Shown here: piece by piece, positions 20,166 to 32,054 of the stretch
Position numbering within the stretch: position 1 is the stretch's first letter
How the letters are laid out: the number at the start of each line of letters is the position of its first letter
Notes under the pieces: model-generated
The model's input: only the letters and a program-made list of their open reading frames with translations
What the model was told of the DNA's origin: nothing
The model's database searches: none
Made by a program: the position numbers and the translations under genes
Assembly: GCA_016206145.1 (NCBI GenBank)
Contig: JACQSA010000020.1
Location: 1 to 40,301, forward strand
Direction of reading: 5' to 3'
Length of the DNA: 40,301 nt
From: Candidatus Uhrbacteria bacterium
GTDB taxonomy: Bacteria; Patescibacteriota; Patescibacteriia; JACQRZ01

Positions 20166-21002
20166 ATGGACCGCGGACGCCTCACAATCACGCTCAAAAA
20201 AGAAATTCTCAAAAAACTCGATGACTGCATCGACGGTTCTCGCATTCGCAACCGCTCCCATGCCATTGAGTATGTGCTGGCGCGATATTTTGCTCCGAAA
20301 CTCAAAAAAGCTCTCATTCTTGCGGGCGGAAAAGGAGTGAAGATGAGGCCATTTACATACGAAATGCCGAAATGCCTCATACCAGTCAACGGCAGGCCAG
20401 TCCTTGATTATACGATAGAAAACCTTCGAAGATATGATATTCGCGATATTATCATCTCAATCGGATACCATGGAGAAAAAATACGCGAATATGTCGGCGA
20501 TGGAAGCCGCTACGGAGTAAAAATTACCTATATAGAACAAAAGGGATCAGAAGTCGGGACGGCGGCACCATTACGGCAAGTAAAAAAACTTGTCGGCGCC
20601 GAGCCGTTTGTCCTTTACTATGCTGACGTGCTTGCCAAAATCAATTACGACGATATGTTCGATTTCCATATTGCAAATGATGGAGTTGCCACTATGGCGC
20701 TGACATCGGTCGCGAAGTCATCGGATTGGGGGGTCGTACGCGTGCAAGGAAGCAGAGTATACTCATTCCTGGAAAAACCGGATCATCGCAAGGATCTTTC
20801 AAAAATCATCAATGTCGGAATCTATATTTGTGAACCGAACATCTTTGATTCCGTCACCCCGCACGCAAAAAGATTGGAAAAGGACGTATTTCCAAAACTT
20901 GTGGAACAACATAAGCTTACCGGCTATATCTTCGCGGGACAGTGGTTTGATGTCGGTAATCCCGAAAGCTATAAACAAGCAGTGGAAGAATGGAAAGTGT
21001 AA
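20166..21002 (+). CDS. fusion: N-terminal ribbon-helix-helix domain plus NDP-sugar nucleotidyltransferase
   Basis: RGRLTITLKKEILKKLDDCIDGSRIRNRSHAIEYVLARYF (RHH) then ALILAGGKGVKMRPFTYEMPKCLIPVNGRPVLDYTIENL (NTP transferase). Confidence 0.9.
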   Translation: MDRGRLTITLKKEILKKLDDCIDGSRIRNRSHAIEYVLARYFAPKLKKALILAGGKGVKMRPFTYEMPKCLIPVNGRPVLDYTIENLRRYDIRDIIISIGYHGEKIREYVGDGSRYGVKITYIEQKGSEVGTAAPLRQVKKLVGAEPFVLYYADVLAKINYDDMFDFHIANDGVATMALTSVAKSSDWGVVRVQGSRVYSFLEKPDHRKDLSKIINVGIYICEPNIFDSVTPHAKRLEKDVFPKLVEQHKLTGYIFAGQWFDVGNPESYKQAVEEWKV

Positions 21003-22485: not shown

Positions 22486-23478
22486 TTATCTGACACAATC
22501 AAAAATCGCTTTTGCGATTTTTTCCGAATCGTGGCGCAAAATGCTTCTTTGAAGACTGTCGCCTTTCACTTTTTTAATTGTCCCGTTCGCAATAAAATCC
22601 GAAGCGATAACTCGCGCTCCTTTCTTTCTACATTCATCAATATCTGGCTGTACAAATTCCGCTTTTCCCAATTTGTATTTTTTCAAAAGAGCAGAGGTGG
22701 GTTTTTTTGTGTTCACAATCACGACATCAATACCGTCTTTGCCATTATGAGCTCCAAGATAGCGATTTAATGTGGTAAAAAAATCTGATGCAGCAAAACC
22801 ATTTGTCTGGCCGAATTTCGTCATAATGTTGGCAACTAAAATCTTCTGAGCTTTTGAGGACCGTATCGCATCTGCCATGCCGCGCACTAAAATATTCGGC
22901 AGCGTGCTCGTATAAAGATCACCGGGGCCAAACACAATTGCATCCGCGTCATGGATCAATCGAATCGCACGATGATTCGCAGGGCCCACAGGTGAAAGTT
23001 TCATTGCAACGATTTTTAAATTGCCATTATACCGTGGTTCGTCAATATGATGCTCACCCATGATGCGTATTCCGTTTTCCAATGTGGCGGAAAGTTTTGT
23101 CGAGGCGAGCATCACCGGTACGACCTGCCCTCGTACATTGAGTAATTTTGCACACAATTTCAACGCCTCTTCGATATTGCCGGTAATTTTTTCCAATGCG
23201 GCAATCAAAATATTCCCAACAGTGTGGCCAAGCAGTGACCCCCGATCAAAACGATAAGAGAACAGTTTCTGTAAAATTGGATCGGTAAACGAGAGCCCAA
23301 GCAGACACTGCCGCAAATCGCCAGGCGGCATGACATTCAATTCTTTGCGAAGTCGCCCCGTTGACCCTCCATCATCTGCAGTAGAAACAATTACGCTATT
23401 ATTCGTCGGAAACGATCGCAACCCTTTCAAAAGAGTAAGAGTCCCTGTTCCGCCTCCGATGATTACGATATTTTTCAT
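22486..23478 (-). CDS. yvcK: YvcK/CofD-like gluconeogenesis factor
   Basis: [67 protein letters not shown]. Confidence 0.93.
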
Positions 23479-24653
23479 GAATTTTCTTTTATCTCTTTAA
23501 ATGCGTGCAAGGCCGTATCGAGATGTTCCTTTGTGTGTGCCGCAGAAATCTGCACGCGAATGCGGGCTTTTCCTTTCGGAACCACCGGGTAGGTGAAACC
23601 GCGCACATAAATGCCTTTTTCAAATAAGGCAGATGCCATCTCTGTGGCTAGTTTTTCTTCAAACAGCATAACCGGCGTGATAGGATGCGTGCCATCGCCT
23701 CCTAATGTAAACCCCAATTTTTCCATTCCCGATCTAAAATAATAAGTATTTTCAATCAACTGCCCACGCAGATGAGAAAACGTGCCGTCAAAATTCTGTA
23801 GCACATACAAAGCCGCGGCAGTAATGGCGGGAGATACACTGTTAGAAAATAATGTCGTACGGCTTCTTTGCCGTAAAACATTAATTATTTCTTTACGACC
23901 CGCGGTAAATCCGCCTCCTGCTCCACCCAAAGCCTTACCAAATGTCGAGGTTACAATGTCCACTCTGTCCATAACTCCAGCCTGCTCTATGCTTCCCCTA
24001 CCGGTTTTACCCAGCACTCCGCTGGCATGAGAATCATCTACCATAACCGATGCCCCGTATGTATCAGCTAAATCGCAAATTTCTTTAAGCGTTGCCGTGA
24101 TGCCATCCATACTGAATACGCCATCAGTCGCGATTAATTTTCTCCGTCTGTTTCCGGAAGTTTTCAATTGATTCTCTAAATCGTCCATATCACAGTTTTT
24201 ATAACGAAATCTTTCGGCTTTACACAAGCGAACGCCGTCAATAATAGAAGCATGGTTTAATTCGTCGCTGAATATAGCGTCGCCTTCTTTCAAAATAGTT
24301 TCAAACAATCCAGTATTCGCGTCAAAACAAGAAGTATACAAAATAGCATCTTCCTGACGAAAAAACCTTGCAACCTCTGCCTCCAAATCTTTATGTAACG
24401 TATTGGTGCCACAAATAAAAGGAACGCTCGCCATGCCAAAACCGTACCGTTCCATTCCTTCCTGCGCGGCTTTCACTAACTCCGATGAAGACGCAAGTCC
24501 AAGATAATTATTGCCGCAAAAATTAAGTAATTTTTTCCCGTCAATCATAATCTGAGCGCCTTGCCGGCCTTCGATTACCTTTTCTTCCTTATACATTCCT
24601 GCCGATTTTATTTCCTCGAGTTCTTGTTGTAATTGATCTTGAAAGGAATACAT
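23475..24653 (-). CDS. kbl: glycine C-acetyltransferase (2-amino-3-ketobutyrate CoA ligase)
   Basis: 392 aa; [45 protein letters not shown]. Confidence 0.9.
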
Positions 24654-24670: not shown

Positions 24671-25825
24671 CTAAAACTGGATTAAAATCTTTGGATGGTG
24701 GAGCATCATCTGCTCAAAGCGCTCTACTGTATAGTCTTTGATGGGCAAGATTGTCCCTTCACCACGCTGCAAAATCACATTAAACATTTTCTCTTGAATT
24801 CCATTGCGTGTATCCTCAAGAAGAGAACGTGTTGTTTCCCACGTTTCAAATACACGACGACCGATGACTGCATGCAGAGTAAGTCCTCGCACAATAAGAC
24901 GATCGTAGTGTTCGATCGTAAAGTTTCCCGATTTGATACCAAACAGAATAACATCGCCGCCTCTTCGTGTCGAGAGGATTGCATTGTTTACGGAAGAATT
25001 AAACCCCGCCATCTCGAATGAAACATCAACACCAATGCCACCTGTTATTTCAAAAATCTCTTTTACGATATTCTGGTCATGCTCAAATGGGTGTGTTTTT
25101 TCTTGCGGCTTCAAAGGAATCACATAATCAACACCGAGCTCGCGCGCCATGGATGCAGCTTTCTCATTCGGTTCGATACCGATAATTGTAGACGCGCCAA
25201 GTCCTTTTGCTACAAGCGCCGCAAAAAGCCCGATAGGGCCCAAGCCGCACAAGGCAACTGTTTTACCTCGAAGATCCACCTTGCGCGCGGCGTGGACAGC
25301 ATTGCCAAACGGCTCCTGCATAGCGGCAACTTCCGGACGAATCTTTGATGTGTTAGTCTTCCACACAATATGGGCAGGCACTTTTACCAATTCCGCAAAT
25401 GCTCCGTCGTGGGAAATACCTAAAATCTTCTCGTTCGTACATACGTGCTTCTCACCCCGCACGCATTGAAAACATTGGTTGCAGATAACATGGGACTCAC
25501 AGGACACAAAATCGCCTTTGCGTATATGGTACTCTGCTTCGACCCGAGATCCGACTTGGACAACTTCACCAAAGAACTCGTGCCCGACAATGCGATGCTC
25601 CTTTTGCTCCATTTCAAGACTCCCGAGAATTTGATCGCGGAATGCGTGACGCAACCATATTCCCCGATCAGAACCACATACGCCTGCATAGTGCACCTTA
25701 ATGATGACGGCGTGCGCGTCAGTTTTGTTTTCTTTTTCATTCAGTGCAGGAGCGGATACTTCTTTCATTTCAAACCCCTTTGAAGTCTCCCATCCATTTT
25801 TTTTGTTGAAAATAAGTGCTATCAT
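24671..25825 (-). CDS. tdh: zinc-dependent L-threonine 3-dehydrogenase-like medium-chain dehydrogenase
   Basis: [68 protein letters not shown]; adjacent to kbl. Confidence 0.85.
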
Positions 25826-26562
25826 ATTTTTTTATTTTTTCCTCCCGTATACTCATACTCATCTTCGCGTAAGCGTCGCAGTCCAGGGCCTTGAGTCATT
25901 TCCTCATGAATGTGCGCAATAAGACCCGGTACTCGTCCGATAAGAAACACCCCTCTTGCCTGAATGGGGTCAAATCCCATATCAAGAAGGACTGCCGCCA
26001 GTGCTCCGTCTATATTCAGTGGCAATTTCTTTGACGAAACTGCATTGAGCGATTTTTCTACCATCAACGCAAATTCGCAATATGTTCCAAAAAAACCCAG
26101 TTCACGCGCCTTGGCACACAAGGCAGTCACGCGAGAATCTTCCAAAAGAACTTTATGGCCGTACCCCGGAACACGAATCTTTTTTTCTTTCAAGGATCCA
26201 ATCAATACATCAATGTCTGCTGTGTCTTTCTGCGACGAAAAAAATTCTGCCGCATCCTGTGCTGCTCCGCCATGGAGTTTCCCAAACGCAAGGATCCCGC
26301 TTGCAAGCGCAGTGTGCAGACTATTGCCTGTCGATGCCGTAAGCCGAGACACAACCGCTGACGCAACTCCAATACCATGATCAATACACGCAACGAGCAA
26401 CGCATCCATCATTCTCGCTTCAGCTGCAGATGGCAATGTGCCGCGCAATACTAAAAATACCACATCGCTAAAACTTTTTTTTGCCATCAATGAGGTCAAC
26501 TCATAGCCACGGATAGATTCTTTGCCGTGTTCCACTTCGCTAATTGCTGTGCGCCATTTCAT
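25822..26562 (-). CDS. citryl-CoA lyase-like protein (citrate-synthase-fold, ACL C-terminal domain-like)
   Basis: 246 aa; LHGGAAQDA, VPGYGHKVL, NIDGALAAVLLDMGF, VPGLIAHIHEE; candidate catalytic His/His/Asp retained. Confidence 0.88.
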   Translation of the reverse strand: MKWRTAISEVEHGKESIRGYELTSLMAKKSFSDVVFLVLRGTLPSAAEARMMDALLVACIDHGIGVASAVVSRLTASTGNSLHTALASGILAFGKLHGGAAQDAAEFFSSQKDTADIDVLIGSLKEKKIRVPGYGHKVLLEDSRVTALCAKARELGFFGTYCEFALMVEKSLNAVSSKKLPLNIDGALAAVLLDMGFDPIQARGVFLIGRVPGLIAHIHEEMTQGPGLRRLREDEYEYTGGKNKKI

Positions 26563-26688
26563 CCCGTTAGAGGGCTGTCGCCTTATGATTTATGATAATT
26601 GCTATAGTCATAGAGTATTATGTTACAATGTCGTTGTTGCCGTAAGGAAAAATTTAAGATTTTTCCTGTCGAGACCCTCTAACGGGAT
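26561..26688. repeat. 128 bp inverted-repeat element between SucD-like and lyase-like genes
   Basis: Perfect 14-bp arms ATCCCGTTAGAGGG (26561-26574) and CCCTCTAACGGGAT (26675-26688); 5-bp TTCAT at both edges (26558-26562, 26688-26692). Confidence 0.85.
26617..26645 (-). promoter_or_regulatory. possible internal promoter TTACGG-N17-CATAAT inside the IR element
   Basis: Minus-strand -35-like 26645-26640, 17 nt spacer, -10-like 26622-26617; directed at the lyase-like gene. Confidence 0.35.
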
Positions 26689-27582
26689 TCATACCACATC
26701 CTTAATTACGATGGCCATATCTTCGTAACGATCAACGACTGTTGCCCCACTCGCGCGAAGAGCTGTTTCTTTCTCTTGCACAGAGCCCTTCCCTTTTTCT
26801 ATCAATGCGCCTGCATGGCCGATCGTCATACCCTCAGGAAGTTGTTGCGCGAATTTTCCACCGATAAAAACAACCAAGGGTTTTGTAAACTGTTTCTTTA
26901 AAAGCATTTCGGCGACAACACATTCATATTCTCCGCCTACTTCTCCAAACAATACAACGCCTTTGGTATCCGGATCCGCTTCAAAAAGTTTCAATGCGTC
27001 TGCATAGGGCGTACCGATCAAGAGATCACCGCCAACGTGAATTGCAGTAGAGATGCCAATCCCTTTGCGTCGAAGCTGCCAAGAAACTTCGTTCATCATG
27101 CCGCCGGATCGTGAGATGACTCCGACAGTGCCGAGAGCATAGATCGCATCAGGATCATCTCCTCCCGCGACTCCGATACGCCCCTTTCCAGAACTGATAA
27201 TACCCAAAGATGCCGGCCCCACGATCCTCACTTTATGCCGATGAGCCAATGCAAGGCACTCCGCAGTGTCCCGAATCGGAATGCGCTCAGTCATCACGTT
27301 GATAAGAGGAATCCCGGCTGCGATTGCTTCTCTGATGGCATCTGCGGCAGCAAAAGGAGGTACATAAATCGCTGTGGCATTGATATCGGGATGATATTTG
27401 AACGCGTGTTCAATGCTGTCATATACAGGGATACCGTCAATGTTCTGGCTGCCTTTGCCGGGAGTGACACCTGCAACTACGATCGTATGATACGCGCGTG
27501 CGGCAATGCTTGCTCGCCGCCCCTCCTTGCCCGTAATGCCTTGAATAAGAAGGCGGGTAGATTCATCTATCAAAATGCTCAT
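26689..27582 (-). CDS. SucD-like/ATP-citrate-lyase-type CoA-ligase alpha subunit
   Basis: 297 aa; GITGKEG, SRSGGMMNE (ACL-like GGMxNE), IGHAGALIE phospho-His site. Confidence 0.9.
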   Translation of the reverse strand: MSILIDESTRLLIQGITGKEGRRASIAARAYHTIVVAGVTPGKGSQNIDGIPVYDSIEHAFKYHPDINATAIYVPPFAAADAIREAIAAGIPLINVMTERIPIRDTAECLALAHRHKVRIVGPASLGIISSGKGRIGVAGGDDPDAIYALGTVGVISRSGGMMNEVSWQLRRKGIGISTAIHVGGDLLIGTPYADALKLFEADPDTKGVVLFGEVGGEYECVVAEMLLKKQFTKPLVVFIGGKFAQQLPEGMTIGHAGALIEKGKGSVQEKETALRASGATVVDRYEDMAIVIKDVV

Positions 27583-28760
27583 ATAGAAATTTTATCCATA
27601 AGTATTTTTGCCGTATCCGTCATGGAAACTTCTCTTCCGTACCACGAAAGGTTCAAATTTTTTTCTCGAGCGGTTTGCTCCATACGCGATCGACCTTCTT
27701 CTTCAAAAGGGCCTGCGCGGCGCACAACGATTGGCACTGAGGGAGCGACATCGCGCAGAGCATCTGCGATTCCTGCCATTGTTTCTCCGATGTGCGTAAA
27801 ATTTGCAACACCCCCGACGATCCATATTCCTTTTACATTGGGTTTTGAAAACACAATCTTTGCAAGCTCATAGACTTTTTCACGTGGAGGATTGCCGGAA
27901 TACTCTGTATAATTTGCGGCCCGACCGCCAACTGCCTCAAGCGCGTCCATCATGCTGATACTTGCTCCTCCTCCGGAAAAAAGGCATGCGATGTTTCCAT
28001 CGAATTCGATATATTTTCCTGCGGTACCGCGATAATAAAATTCACCCGTATCAATAACTCGTACGGCTTGCTCCCGAGGAGTCGGCGCGCGCCCCATGAC
28101 AGTACGCGAAGGGTAGTGCCATGTATGCCGATATTCGCTGTCGTCATCAAGTATTACCTTGGCATCAAGCGCTCGAAACTCTCCTTCACTGAGCCGCACC
28201 AACGGATTTATTTCTGCCAATCGCGCGTCTTCTTCCGAAAAAAGCGTATACAGCGAACGCGAAAGAGAAACAAGCGCAAGAAGATCTTTTCCACGCACTC
28301 CGCACTTAAGAAAAAAATTGCGAATCCGAAATTCTTCAAATCCTCGCACCGGGTGGATCACTGTTTCAAATATGTCTCTTTGCTCCTCAACATGATTTCC
28401 GCCAGAAAAAGAAAAAAGTAACACGGGAGAAAAATATCTTGTCGAATAGGTCATGGAAAGATACCATTCCGCAAGTATGGAAATTTTTTCTTCGACCAAA
28501 ATTGCACACACCTGCTCTCCTTGAAACGGCTGAGCAAAAAGCATTTCACCCTTTTGTGACAAGTCTTCCGTATTCTCAGCAAAAAAAATACCGCTATGCA
28601 ATCCTCGTTTCCCTTTGAGCACCTGAACTTTGAGAACGCACGGAAATATGTCCCACACGATATGTGCAAGCTCTTCTCGCGCAGAAACGAGCACACTCTG
28701 CGGAGTCTTTATGCCATAGGAACGAAACAAATTTTTCCCTTCATGCTCGTAGAGAATCAT
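27579..28760 (-). CDS. SucC-like/ATP-citrate-lyase-type ATP-grasp beta subunit
   Basis: 393 aa; EHEGKNLFRSYGI, AEINPLV, C-terminal GGVANFTHIGETMAGI...VVRRAGP resembling the ACL citrate-binding region. Confidence 0.9.
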   Translation of the reverse strand: MILYEHEGKNLFRSYGIKTPQSVLVSAREELAHIVWDIFPCVLKVQVLKGKRGLHSGIFFAENTEDLSQKGEMLFAQPFQGEQVCAILVEEKISILAEWYLSMTYSTRYFSPVLLFSFSGGNHVEEQRDIFETVIHPVRGFEEFRIRNFFLKCGVRGKDLLALVSLSRSLYTLFSEEDARLAEINPLVRLSEGEFRALDAKVILDDDSEYRHTWHYPSRTVMGRAPTPREQAVRVIDTGEFYYRGTAGKYIEFDGNIACLFSGGGASISMMDALEAVGGRAANYTEYSGNPPREKVYELAKIVFSKPNVKGIWIVGGVANFTHIGETMAGIADALRDVAPSVPIVVRRAGPFEEEGRSRMEQTAREKNLNLSWYGREVSMTDTAKILMDKISI

Positions 28761-28771
28761 TCACGCAAGGG

Positions 28772-29440
28772 TTAAAGGTTAGTGTAGGGTTGGACCAGAT
28801 TCTTAATTTCTTCACGTCCATACACTCCCGATGTTACTCGATATGATGAAAGAAACCATACATCCTTTTCAAAAATAATTCCCGGACCTACTGCAGTATT
28901 CACACCAAGTTGGCACCGATCACCCAGGATCACTCCAAATTTTTTCAGTTCTGTGTCTTTGCCATCAATCACGATCTTAGCCTCGTCGAATCGCAGATTC
29001 GCCACCTTGGCGCCGGCACCAAAATGAACGTTATTGCCAAGCACTGAATCACCCACATAATTAAAGTGATCAAGCCTTACTCCGTCAAATAGGATCGATC
29101 GAATCAACTCTGTGGTATGGCCGATAACACAATTATCTCCTGTAATCACGCTGCCGCGAATATATGCGCCAGAACGGATTTCACAATTCTTTCCAATAAT
29201 AGTCGGCCCTTTGATCACTGCGCCATGTTCAATGGTGGTACCCTCACCGATCTCTACAATGTCTTCGATATGCACATCACCATGAATGACGCCACGATTC
29301 CCGGGCTTGATGATGAAACGAAGGTATTCTTCAATTCGTGGAAAAAGAATCCACATCTGACCTTCTGGCAATCCTTCAAAAAGAGACTGTACTCTCTCTG
29401 GTATGTATGTAAAAAACTGTTTCATGTGTTTCGTTGCCAT
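28772..29440 (-). CDS. left-handed beta-helix (hexapeptide) protein, GlmU C-terminal-like
   Basis: 222 aa; hexapeptide-like repeats (VIGEGTTIEHGAVIKGPTIIGKNCEIRSGAYIRG); no full uridyltransferase domain. Confidence 0.8.
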   Translation of the reverse strand: MATKHMKQFFTYIPERVQSLFEGLPEGQMWILFPRIEEYLRFIIKPGNRGVIHGDVHIEDIVEIGEGTTIEHGAVIKGPTIIGKNCEIRSGAYIRGSVITGDNCVIGHTTELIRSILFDGVRLDHFNYVGDSVLGNNVHFGAGAKVANLRFDEAKIVIDGKDTELKKFGVILGDRCQLGVNTAVGPGIIFEKDVWFLSSYRVTSGVYGREEIKNLVQPYTNL

Positions 29441-31280: not shown

Positions 31281-32054
31281 CTAATGATCTAGGGAGTGGC
31301 CAAGAGCCTTCCAAAGATGATCAAAAATAATTAATTCGGTACGATAGATCGCATCATCTTGCACAACAAATGCATGCAGTTCATCATCTTGTGAGTTTTG
31401 GCTGATCGTTACTACTGTTCCTGCATAGAGAATGCGGTACGTCGGAGTGCCATGGTCTGTGGGAAGCCAGCGCCGTTCGGAAAGATCTTGGTATTCACCG
31501 CCGGCACCGACCGCAATGACATTGACTGATATTCCCCGACGAATGCGTTCTTGGGTAAAAGAAGGAAAACTATGATACAAGCTATCGCGAATTTCAACCG
31601 ATGAGTACACCCGATATAATTTTTTTTCTTGCGCACCGACAATATCAAGGACATCTTCAAGGATCAAACGAATCCCTTGACGCCCTTCATACGAACGCAC
31701 TGATGTTTTTGCGACACCGTCGCTGCGAAGCGCATTGAGCTTAGGAAGTTGCGCTTGAAGCTCTTGATAGTTTGCTTGCATCGCAGAAAGGGAGTCTTGA
31801 AAAAGAGTTACGATTTTTTCAGGACTTTCCGCAACAAAGTATTGTCGCTTCTGTTTATGATAATAGCTCACTAACCCACGATCAATGAGTGAACGAAGAA
31901 TGGTATGGGTGGTCCCTCGATTAATGTCAGCTACCCCTGCGATCTTTCGTACAGGGGAGGGGCCGGAGGTAAGTAATGCAAGGTATACACGGGCATCTTT
32001 GTCATCAAGTCCGCAACGAATAAGTAAGTTTTGAAATTCAAGTGTAGAAATCAT
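31281..32054 (-). CDS. TrmB-family transcriptional regulator
   Basis: N-terminal wHTH (GLDDKDARVYLALLTSGPSPVRKIAGVADINRGTTHTILRSLIDRGLVSYY) plus C-terminal effector-like domain. Confidence 0.85.
   Translation of the reverse strand: MISTLEFQNLLIRCGLDDKDARVYLALLTSGPSPVRKIAGVADINRGTTHTILRSLIDRGLVSYYHKQKRQYFVAESPEKIVTLFQDSLSAMQANYQELQAQLPKLNALRSDGVAKTSVRSYEGRQGIRLILEDVLDIVGAQEKKLYRVYSSVEIRDSLYHSFPSFTQERIRRGISVNVIAVGAGGEYQDLSERRWLPTDHGTPTYRILYAGTVVTISQNSQDDELHAFVVQDDAIYRTELIIFDHLWKALGHSLDH

Follow-up and report, generated by a model that had tools for sequence, protein, structure and literature searches.

A predicted unfused three-gene ATP-citrate lyase beside UDP-N-acetylglucosamine genes in a Candidatus Uhrbacteria genome

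The stretch of DNA analyzed here (the window) comprises 40,301 nucleotides of contig JACQSA010000020.1 from a Candidatus Uhrbacteria metagenome-assembled genome (MAG; GCA_016206145.1) of 0.92 Mb in 61 contigs, 94.9% complete. Three adjacent open reading frames (ORFs) occupy positions 25822 to 28760 of its minus strand and are transcribed in the order ATP-grasp/citrate-binding protein, SucD-like protein, and lyase, which is the domain order of ATP-citrate lyase (ACL). The original prediction had placed an unfused ACL, or a citryl-CoA synthetase plus lyase (CCS and CCL), at this site, and both its positions and the motifs it quoted were confirmed, with agreeing Pfam, NCBIfam, and PDB matches. 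The first, CcsA-like protein matched Pfam ATP-grasp_2 and Citrate_bind (E = 3e-27 for Citrate_bind), and its top PDB sequence match was 6hxq_B, the large CCS subunit of Hydrogenobacter thermophilus (3.4e-67). The CcsB-like protein, whose gene overlaps that of the CcsA-like protein by 4 bp, contains CoA_binding and Ligase_CoA domains and matched A. pernix SucD first (1.1e-71) and the CCS small subunit 6hxq_A second (5.2e-66). The lyase scored 267 bits against the NCBIfam citryl-CoA lyase model NF004869 (curated cutoff, 212), and its top PDB sequence match was H. thermophilus CCL, 6hxp (1e-59). The AlphaFold models of the CcsA-like protein and the lyase were both confident (mean pLDDT, 89.6 and 89.0), and 6hxq_B and 6hxp, respectively, also topped the Foldseek lists obtained with them. 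The same three genes recur in the same order in dozens of genomes. Judged by these matches, the identity of the trio is far above chance level.

The citrate site of the CcsA-like protein reads ANYTEYSGNPP and ANFT, plus RRAGP. In an alignment with human ACLY, with residue numbers counted on the human chain, Y287-S288-G289, N320-F321-T322, and R347-R348 of the window protein correspond to Y307-S308-G309, N346-F347-T348, and R378-R379, and all are retained; that is, the YSG, NFT, and RR of the ACL site are present. H. thermophilus CCS reads ANFTDIGGNPP and ANNT at the same places, and IGG together with ANNT or ASNT is found at the aligned positions of H. thermophilus and Nitrospirota CCS, whereas SucC carries other residues. 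The CCS-type motif (IGGNPP, ANNT/ASNT) does not occur in the window protein, which has YSGNPP and ANFT instead. The CcsB-like protein carries SRSGGM and the phospho-histidine motif GHAGA. The lyase retains IDHG, HGGA, PGYGH, and NIDG, and we take the ACLY equivalents of IDHG, PGYGH, and NIDG to include H900 and D1026. Its HGGA has the histidine typical of CCL and citrate synthase, at a position where Chlorobium limicola ACL reads FGGA. In ACLY, Phe347 adopts two conformations, one with citryl-CoA and one with acetyl-CoA plus oxaloacetate, and H900 and D1026 are named in the same study (PMC10115795).

Compared with known systems, the trio therefore combines features of two. With CcsA/CcsB and Ccl of H. 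thermophilus (6hxq and 6hxp), it shares the layout as three separate proteins, the nearest CcsA and Ccl relatives by sequence and fold, and the HGGA histidine, but its citrate site, tree position, and operon differ, and no genes of the reductive tricarboxylic acid (rTCA) cycle were found in the window genome. With ACL (AclB/AclA of C. limicola and Sulfurovum; human ACLY), it shares the domain order, the citrate motifs including the Phe347 equivalent, RR.GP, the phospho-histidine, and a citryl-CoA-lyase module; unlike in ACL, its SucD-like module and its lyase module are encoded by two ORFs with 126 bp between them. SucC/SucD resemble the synthetase pair in general fold and phospho-histidine motif, but SucC is without the citrate-binding motifs and the trees are separate. 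The malate-CoA ligase MtkA/MtkB with malyl-CoA lyase follows the same synthetase-then-lyase logic, but the malate-CoA ligase model scored far below its cutoff and the window lyase has a citrate-synthase fold. By its motifs, the trio is an ACL-type synthetase site in an unfused layout with a CCL-type lyase.

Phylogeny agreed with the motifs. The CcsA-like and CcsB-like proteins grouped with ACL/CCS at supports of 100/100 and 100/99, apart from the SucC and SucD proteins of E. coli, T. aquaticus, A. pernix, and Nitrospirota, and the lyase's own tree is likewise among the bases for its assignment. The placement inside succinyl-CoA synthetases with loss of citrate residues, which the original prediction had named as the outcome contradicting it, was looked for in these trees and alignments and not seen. 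Succinyl-CoA synthetase identity was ruled out by the trees and motifs, and the scores against the SucC and SucD models were also below cutoff (213.7 versus 375.6 and 279.6 versus 336 bits). The trio thus very probably belongs to the ACL/CCS-CCL enzyme class, and citrate or citryl-CoA, which had been proposed over succinate as the substrate, is favored by the trees, motifs, and predicted folds. In a concatenated tree (48 sets, 949 columns), fused ACL formed one clade (100/100) and CCS another (100/100), and the window trio fell outside both, as did the other unfused trios of candidate phyla radiation (CPR) bacteria and DPANN archaea; it joined one Uhrbacteria and one Kerfeldbacteria trio at 100/99. 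Membership in the Hydrogenobacter-type CCS clade was ruled out by the citrate motif and this tree. Two sets with unfused, shortened synthetase ORFs (L159 and L160) adjoin fused ACL at 94/88. The ACL references included only one real ACL from a plasmid search (Sulfurovum). By motifs and trees together, the trio represents a third type, unfused and bearing the citrate site of ACL, and it fits neither ACL nor CCS/CCL exactly; the earlier wording "ACL or CCS plus CCL" was a fair hedge and can be sharpened accordingly. The order of the deep branches among unfused, fused, and CCS sets is not settled, as approximately unbiased tests gave P = 0.059 for a single clade of all unfused sets and P = 0.43 for unfused plus fused sets versus CCS. 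Separate genes combined with the citrate site of ACL bear on the origin of ACL by gene fusion. Tentatively, the CPR and DPANN trios may preserve the three-gene state ancestral to fused ACL, with CCS of Aquificota and Nitrospirota as a sister line with an altered citrate site and the CPR enzyme as a dedicated acetyl-CoA source for UDP-N-acetylglucosamine (UDP-GlcNAc), its citrate coming from a host or community; we regard this combined scenario as plausible rather than likely. A separate arrangement is seen at four Leptospirillum-type loci (L031, L032, L033, and L036), where CCS-type genes, an aconitase relative, and Ccl lie within ∼11 kb of a true SucCD pair.

The trio is the center of a nine-gene run from 32054 to 22486, in the order TrmB-like, glmS, GlmU-type domain, CcsA, CcsB, Ccl, tdh-like, kbl, and yvcK (Table 1), with intergenic gaps of −4 to 17 bp except for a 126-bp spacer. 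GlmS forms glucosamine-6-phosphate, the GlmU acetyltransferase consumes acetyl-CoA, and YvcK binds UDP-GlcNAc. The window's GlmU-type domain aligned to positions 215 to 387 of TIGR03992 at 164 bits, which is under the cutoff for the full-length model. The association was examined in 20 further CPR ACL loci (7 to 13 kb each) against 40 windows of 13 kb picked at random in ten of the genomes that carry these loci. A glmS, glmM, glmU, or yvcK gene lay near the ACL genes at 8 of the 20 loci compared to 1 of the 40 random windows (Fisher one-sided P = 3.5e-4); counted by family, the figure was 7 of 17 (P = 4.9e-4), and the result was the same after queries derived from the test loci were removed. 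For example, the gene order in L147 is GlmS-trio-GNAT-YvcK-GlmU, a GlmU acetyltransferase domain overlaps CcsA in L145, and GlmM lies directly behind a fused ACL in L151. The identities of GlmM in L151 and of the GlmU domains in L144, L145, L147, and L162 were checked. At trio loci of the window's class, GlmS and/or YvcK often adjoin, but these loci were mostly left out of the count because they share their neighborhood by descent. No UDP-GlcNAc linkage was seen at any of the Nitrospirota or archaeal loci.

Table 1. Features of the nine-gene run and its spacer, in order of transcription
Feature	Position	Strand	Basis
TrmB-family sugar-responsive regulator, first of run	31281-32054	-	Pfam TrmB 5.7e-12
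GlmS, glutamine-fructose-6-phosphate aminotransferase, 607 aa	29444-31267	-	MCGIIGYIG start; homologous to E. coli GlmS query
GlmU-type acetyltransferase domain (left-handed beta-helix), likely acetyl-CoA consumer	28772-29440	-	TIGR03992 Arch_glmU, hexapeptide repeats
CcsA/AclB-like synthetase subunit, 393 aa	27579-28760	-	ATP-grasp + ACL-type citrate-binding domain; Pfam, PDB, motifs, tree
CcsB-like (SucD-like) synthetase subunit, 297 aa	26689-27582	-	Phospho-His motif GHAGA; Pfam, PDB, motifs, tree
Spacer with perfect inverted repeat, 126 bp	26563-26688		Exactly between SucD-like stop and lyase start
Citryl-CoA lyase (predicted), 246 aa	25822-26562	-	Citrate-synthase fold; NCBIfam NF004869, PDB 6hxp, motifs, tree
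Tdh-like zinc dehydrogenase	24671-25825	-	4-bp overlap of its start with the lyase stop
Kbl, glycine C-acetyltransferase (2-amino-3-ketobutyrate CoA ligase)	23475-24653	-	NCBIfam PRK06939 591 vs 460 bits
YvcK, UDP-GlcNAc-binding regulator	22486-23478	-	TIGR01826 299 vs 196 bits

We favor, at a probability of roughly 0.6, the reading that the trio is an unfused three-subunit ACL that gives acetyl-CoA from citrate, chiefly for UDP-GlcNAc. In this pathway, the SucD-type histidine of CcsA/CcsB would be phosphorylated by ATP and the phosphate passed to citrate to form citryl-CoA, which the citrate-synthase-fold subunit would split into acetyl-CoA and oxaloacetate. Most of the acetyl-CoA would be used by the GlmU-type acetyltransferase, whose gene lies immediately upstream, and the oxaloacetate would be removed as phosphoenolpyruvate (PEP) by an ATP-dependent PEP carboxykinase. 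The Tdh-like/Kbl pair would be a second acetyl-CoA source, from threonine. The trio would then serve as an acetyl-CoA source in a bacterium without a tricarboxylic acid cycle, not in carbon fixation. Family, motifs, operon geometry, gene absences, and linkage statistics come directly from the sequence; enzymatic activity, the direction of flux, and the uptake of external citrate are what we infer. How CPR bacteria, a very large group, obtain acetyl-CoA for this cell-wall sugar is an open question, and the proposal offers a testable route for some of them.

The gene content of the window genome bears on this reading and on its rivals. Among 22 trio-bearing genomes, aconitase (PF00330) was found only in a Diapherotrites archaeon and not in the window genome, and the lyase was the sole Citrate_synt match, with no separate citrate synthase; the same searches recovered aconitase and Citrate_synt in 14 of 14 and 13 of 14 well-known genomes, respectively. 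The window genome also had no match for the POR_N domain (PF01855) of pyruvate:ferredoxin or 2-oxoglutarate:ferredoxin oxidoreductase (PFOR and KOR), pyruvate formate-lyase (PFL), AMP-forming Acs, Pta, 2-oxoacid dehydrogenase E2, AckA, CitT, Mdh, or malic enzyme, and its only match for ADP-forming acetyl-CoA synthetase was the CcsB gene, at a low score. The only acetyl-CoA routes detected were the trio and Kbl with the Tdh-like protein. An ATP-type PEP carboxykinase is present (42% identical to that of E. coli), and the related genome G006 has one too. Malic enzyme occurs in 12 of 21 trio genomes, the Diapherotrites one excluded, and was ruled out as a universal trio partner since it is missing from the window genome.

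CCS/CCL has been treated as a marker of the rTCA cycle in a survey of carbon-fixation pathways (PMC9802188), and "ATP citrate lyase (aclAB)" was reported by automated annotation as enriched in Saccharimonadia (PMC12577380). ACL in metagenomes is read as a sign of carbon fixation by this cycle. That the trio is an rTCA cycle or a fragment of it for CO2 fixation, as in Hydrogenobacter, is suggested by the shared enzyme class; with no matches for aconitase, PFOR/KOR-type POR_N, Mdh, or malic enzyme in the window genome, the probability of this is close to negligible, and the cycle itself was ruled out by the missing aconitase and PFOR. In a genome that bears an ACL-type enzyme but gave no match for aconitase, a separate citrate synthase, or PFOR, marker-based rTCA annotation would mislead.

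The strongest competitor is a trio running in reverse, in which acetyl-CoA from threonine (Tdh-like/Kbl) and oxaloacetate from PEP (PEP carboxykinase) would yield citryl-CoA and then citrate, excreted as a fermentation product with gain of ATP. The reaction is reversible in principle, the Tdh-like and Kbl genes are cotranscribed with the trio and normally directed to acetyl-CoA, PEP carboxykinase is able to form oxaloacetate with ATP gain, and no acetate-forming ATP step (AckA, Pta, or ADP-forming synthetase) was found. However, this role leaves the GlmS/GlmM/GlmU/YvcK linkage across CPR unexplained, the characterized relatives serve cleavage, and we know of no citrate exporter; on balance we consider it unlikely. 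A second possibility is that the substrate is a tri- or dicarboxylic acid other than citrate (methylcitrate, citramalate, or malate) and the product another acyl-CoA. Citrate-synthase folds include methylcitrate synthases, which gave weak matches, and no citrate supply is evident in the genome, but the retention of the citrate-contacting residues of ACL, the lyase's citryl-CoA lyase family model, and the malate-CoA ligase score far under its cutoff make this improbable.

Several points weigh against citrate cleavage for UDP-GlcNAc. First, the source of citrate is unexplained, which is the main gap, because no citrate synthase, aconitase, or recognized citrate transporter (CitMHS and CitT searched) was found in the window genome. 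Second, close relatives without the trio also have no PFOR, PFL, Acs, Pta, or E2 matches and yet live, which makes the trio dispensable within the group. Third, 12 of the 20 CPR loci have no nearby glm gene. Fourth, the Tdh-like protein matched L-threonine 3-dehydrogenase models best but at 253 bits, compared to a cutoff of 380. Finally, some of the absences were scored with a single E. coli query each, in a MAG that is 94.9% complete.

The host is an Uhrbacteria-like CPR bacterium that is probably host dependent. Its closest named trio-bearing relative is a Candidatus Uhrbacteria MAG (L011), and other trio loci were found in Magasanikbacteria, Kerfeldbacteria, a Pacebacteria MAG, a Diapherotrites archaeon, and a Woesearchaeota archaeon. 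A dedicated ACL-like enzyme had been called unexpected in a reduced genome; physiologically this remains true, but the trio is no singular case: within the class, 30 of 389 sampled genomes carry Ccl-like genes. In the phylum survey, 33 of 389 had a CcsA-type match, and these matches included true SucCD as well as unfused trios and two-gene fused ACLs. The distribution is patchy, since only 1 of 10 other genomes of the family has the trio. Among the papers searched, none combines "citryl-CoA" with "candidate phyla radiation"; because the 2019 ACL structure paper (cited in PMC9560492) may list CPR trios, no first report is claimed.

The spacer lies ahead of the lyase gene, and the arms of its inverted repeat span 26563 to 26574 and 26675 to 26686 (ATCCCGTTAGAGGG ... 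CCCTCTAACGGGAT; fold z-score, −5.9). In the two closest relatives, the corresponding gap measures 21 and 4 bp. The spacer had no match in Rfam, and no further full copy was found in its own genome or in the other fetched loci; a known RNA or a dispersed element was ruled out by these searches. Its appearance suggests either a small insertion or a hairpin that could limit translation of the lyase. Such an insertion, together with the patchy occurrence in family and class, would fit a trio that was recently acquired and is decaying or unused, its UDP-GlcNAc linkage being a conserved neighborhood without function. All three frames are intact with their catalytic motifs, and the linkage recurs across different families and with fused ACLs, which makes this very unlikely.

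A few neighboring arrangements were also observed. In the Diapherotrites archaeon (L037:646-6756), aconitase, NADP-isocitrate dehydrogenase, CcsA, CcsB, and Ccl form a run, with a malic-enzyme relative adjoining; by its gene content, the run may lead from 2-oxoglutarate to acetyl-CoA in this member of the DPANN archaea. Directly behind the trio in two Magasanikbacteria MAGs (L027:6787-8577 and L028:6726-8573) stand a transporter of the CitMHS family, assigned by Pfam in L027, and a protein judged CBS-like by eye. This transporter is a candidate citrate importer from its family, and import by CitMHS was considered and rejected for the window genome, where none was found. At L018:4284-5411, a malic enzyme lies a few genes past the trio, fitting disposal of oxaloacetate/malate to pyruvate, and a relative of the same enzyme is found behind the trio in L017. 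Other CPR genomes (L150 to L158) have a fused two-gene ACL (∼376 to 426 aa plus ∼600 aa), with glmS nearby in L157. Finally, at 20166 to 21002 of the window, a GlmU/RmlA-like nucleotidyltransferase has 46 additional residues at its N terminus that resemble a ribbon-helix-helix DNA-binding domain (Pfam RHH_1, E = 0.0014, just short of the cutoff).

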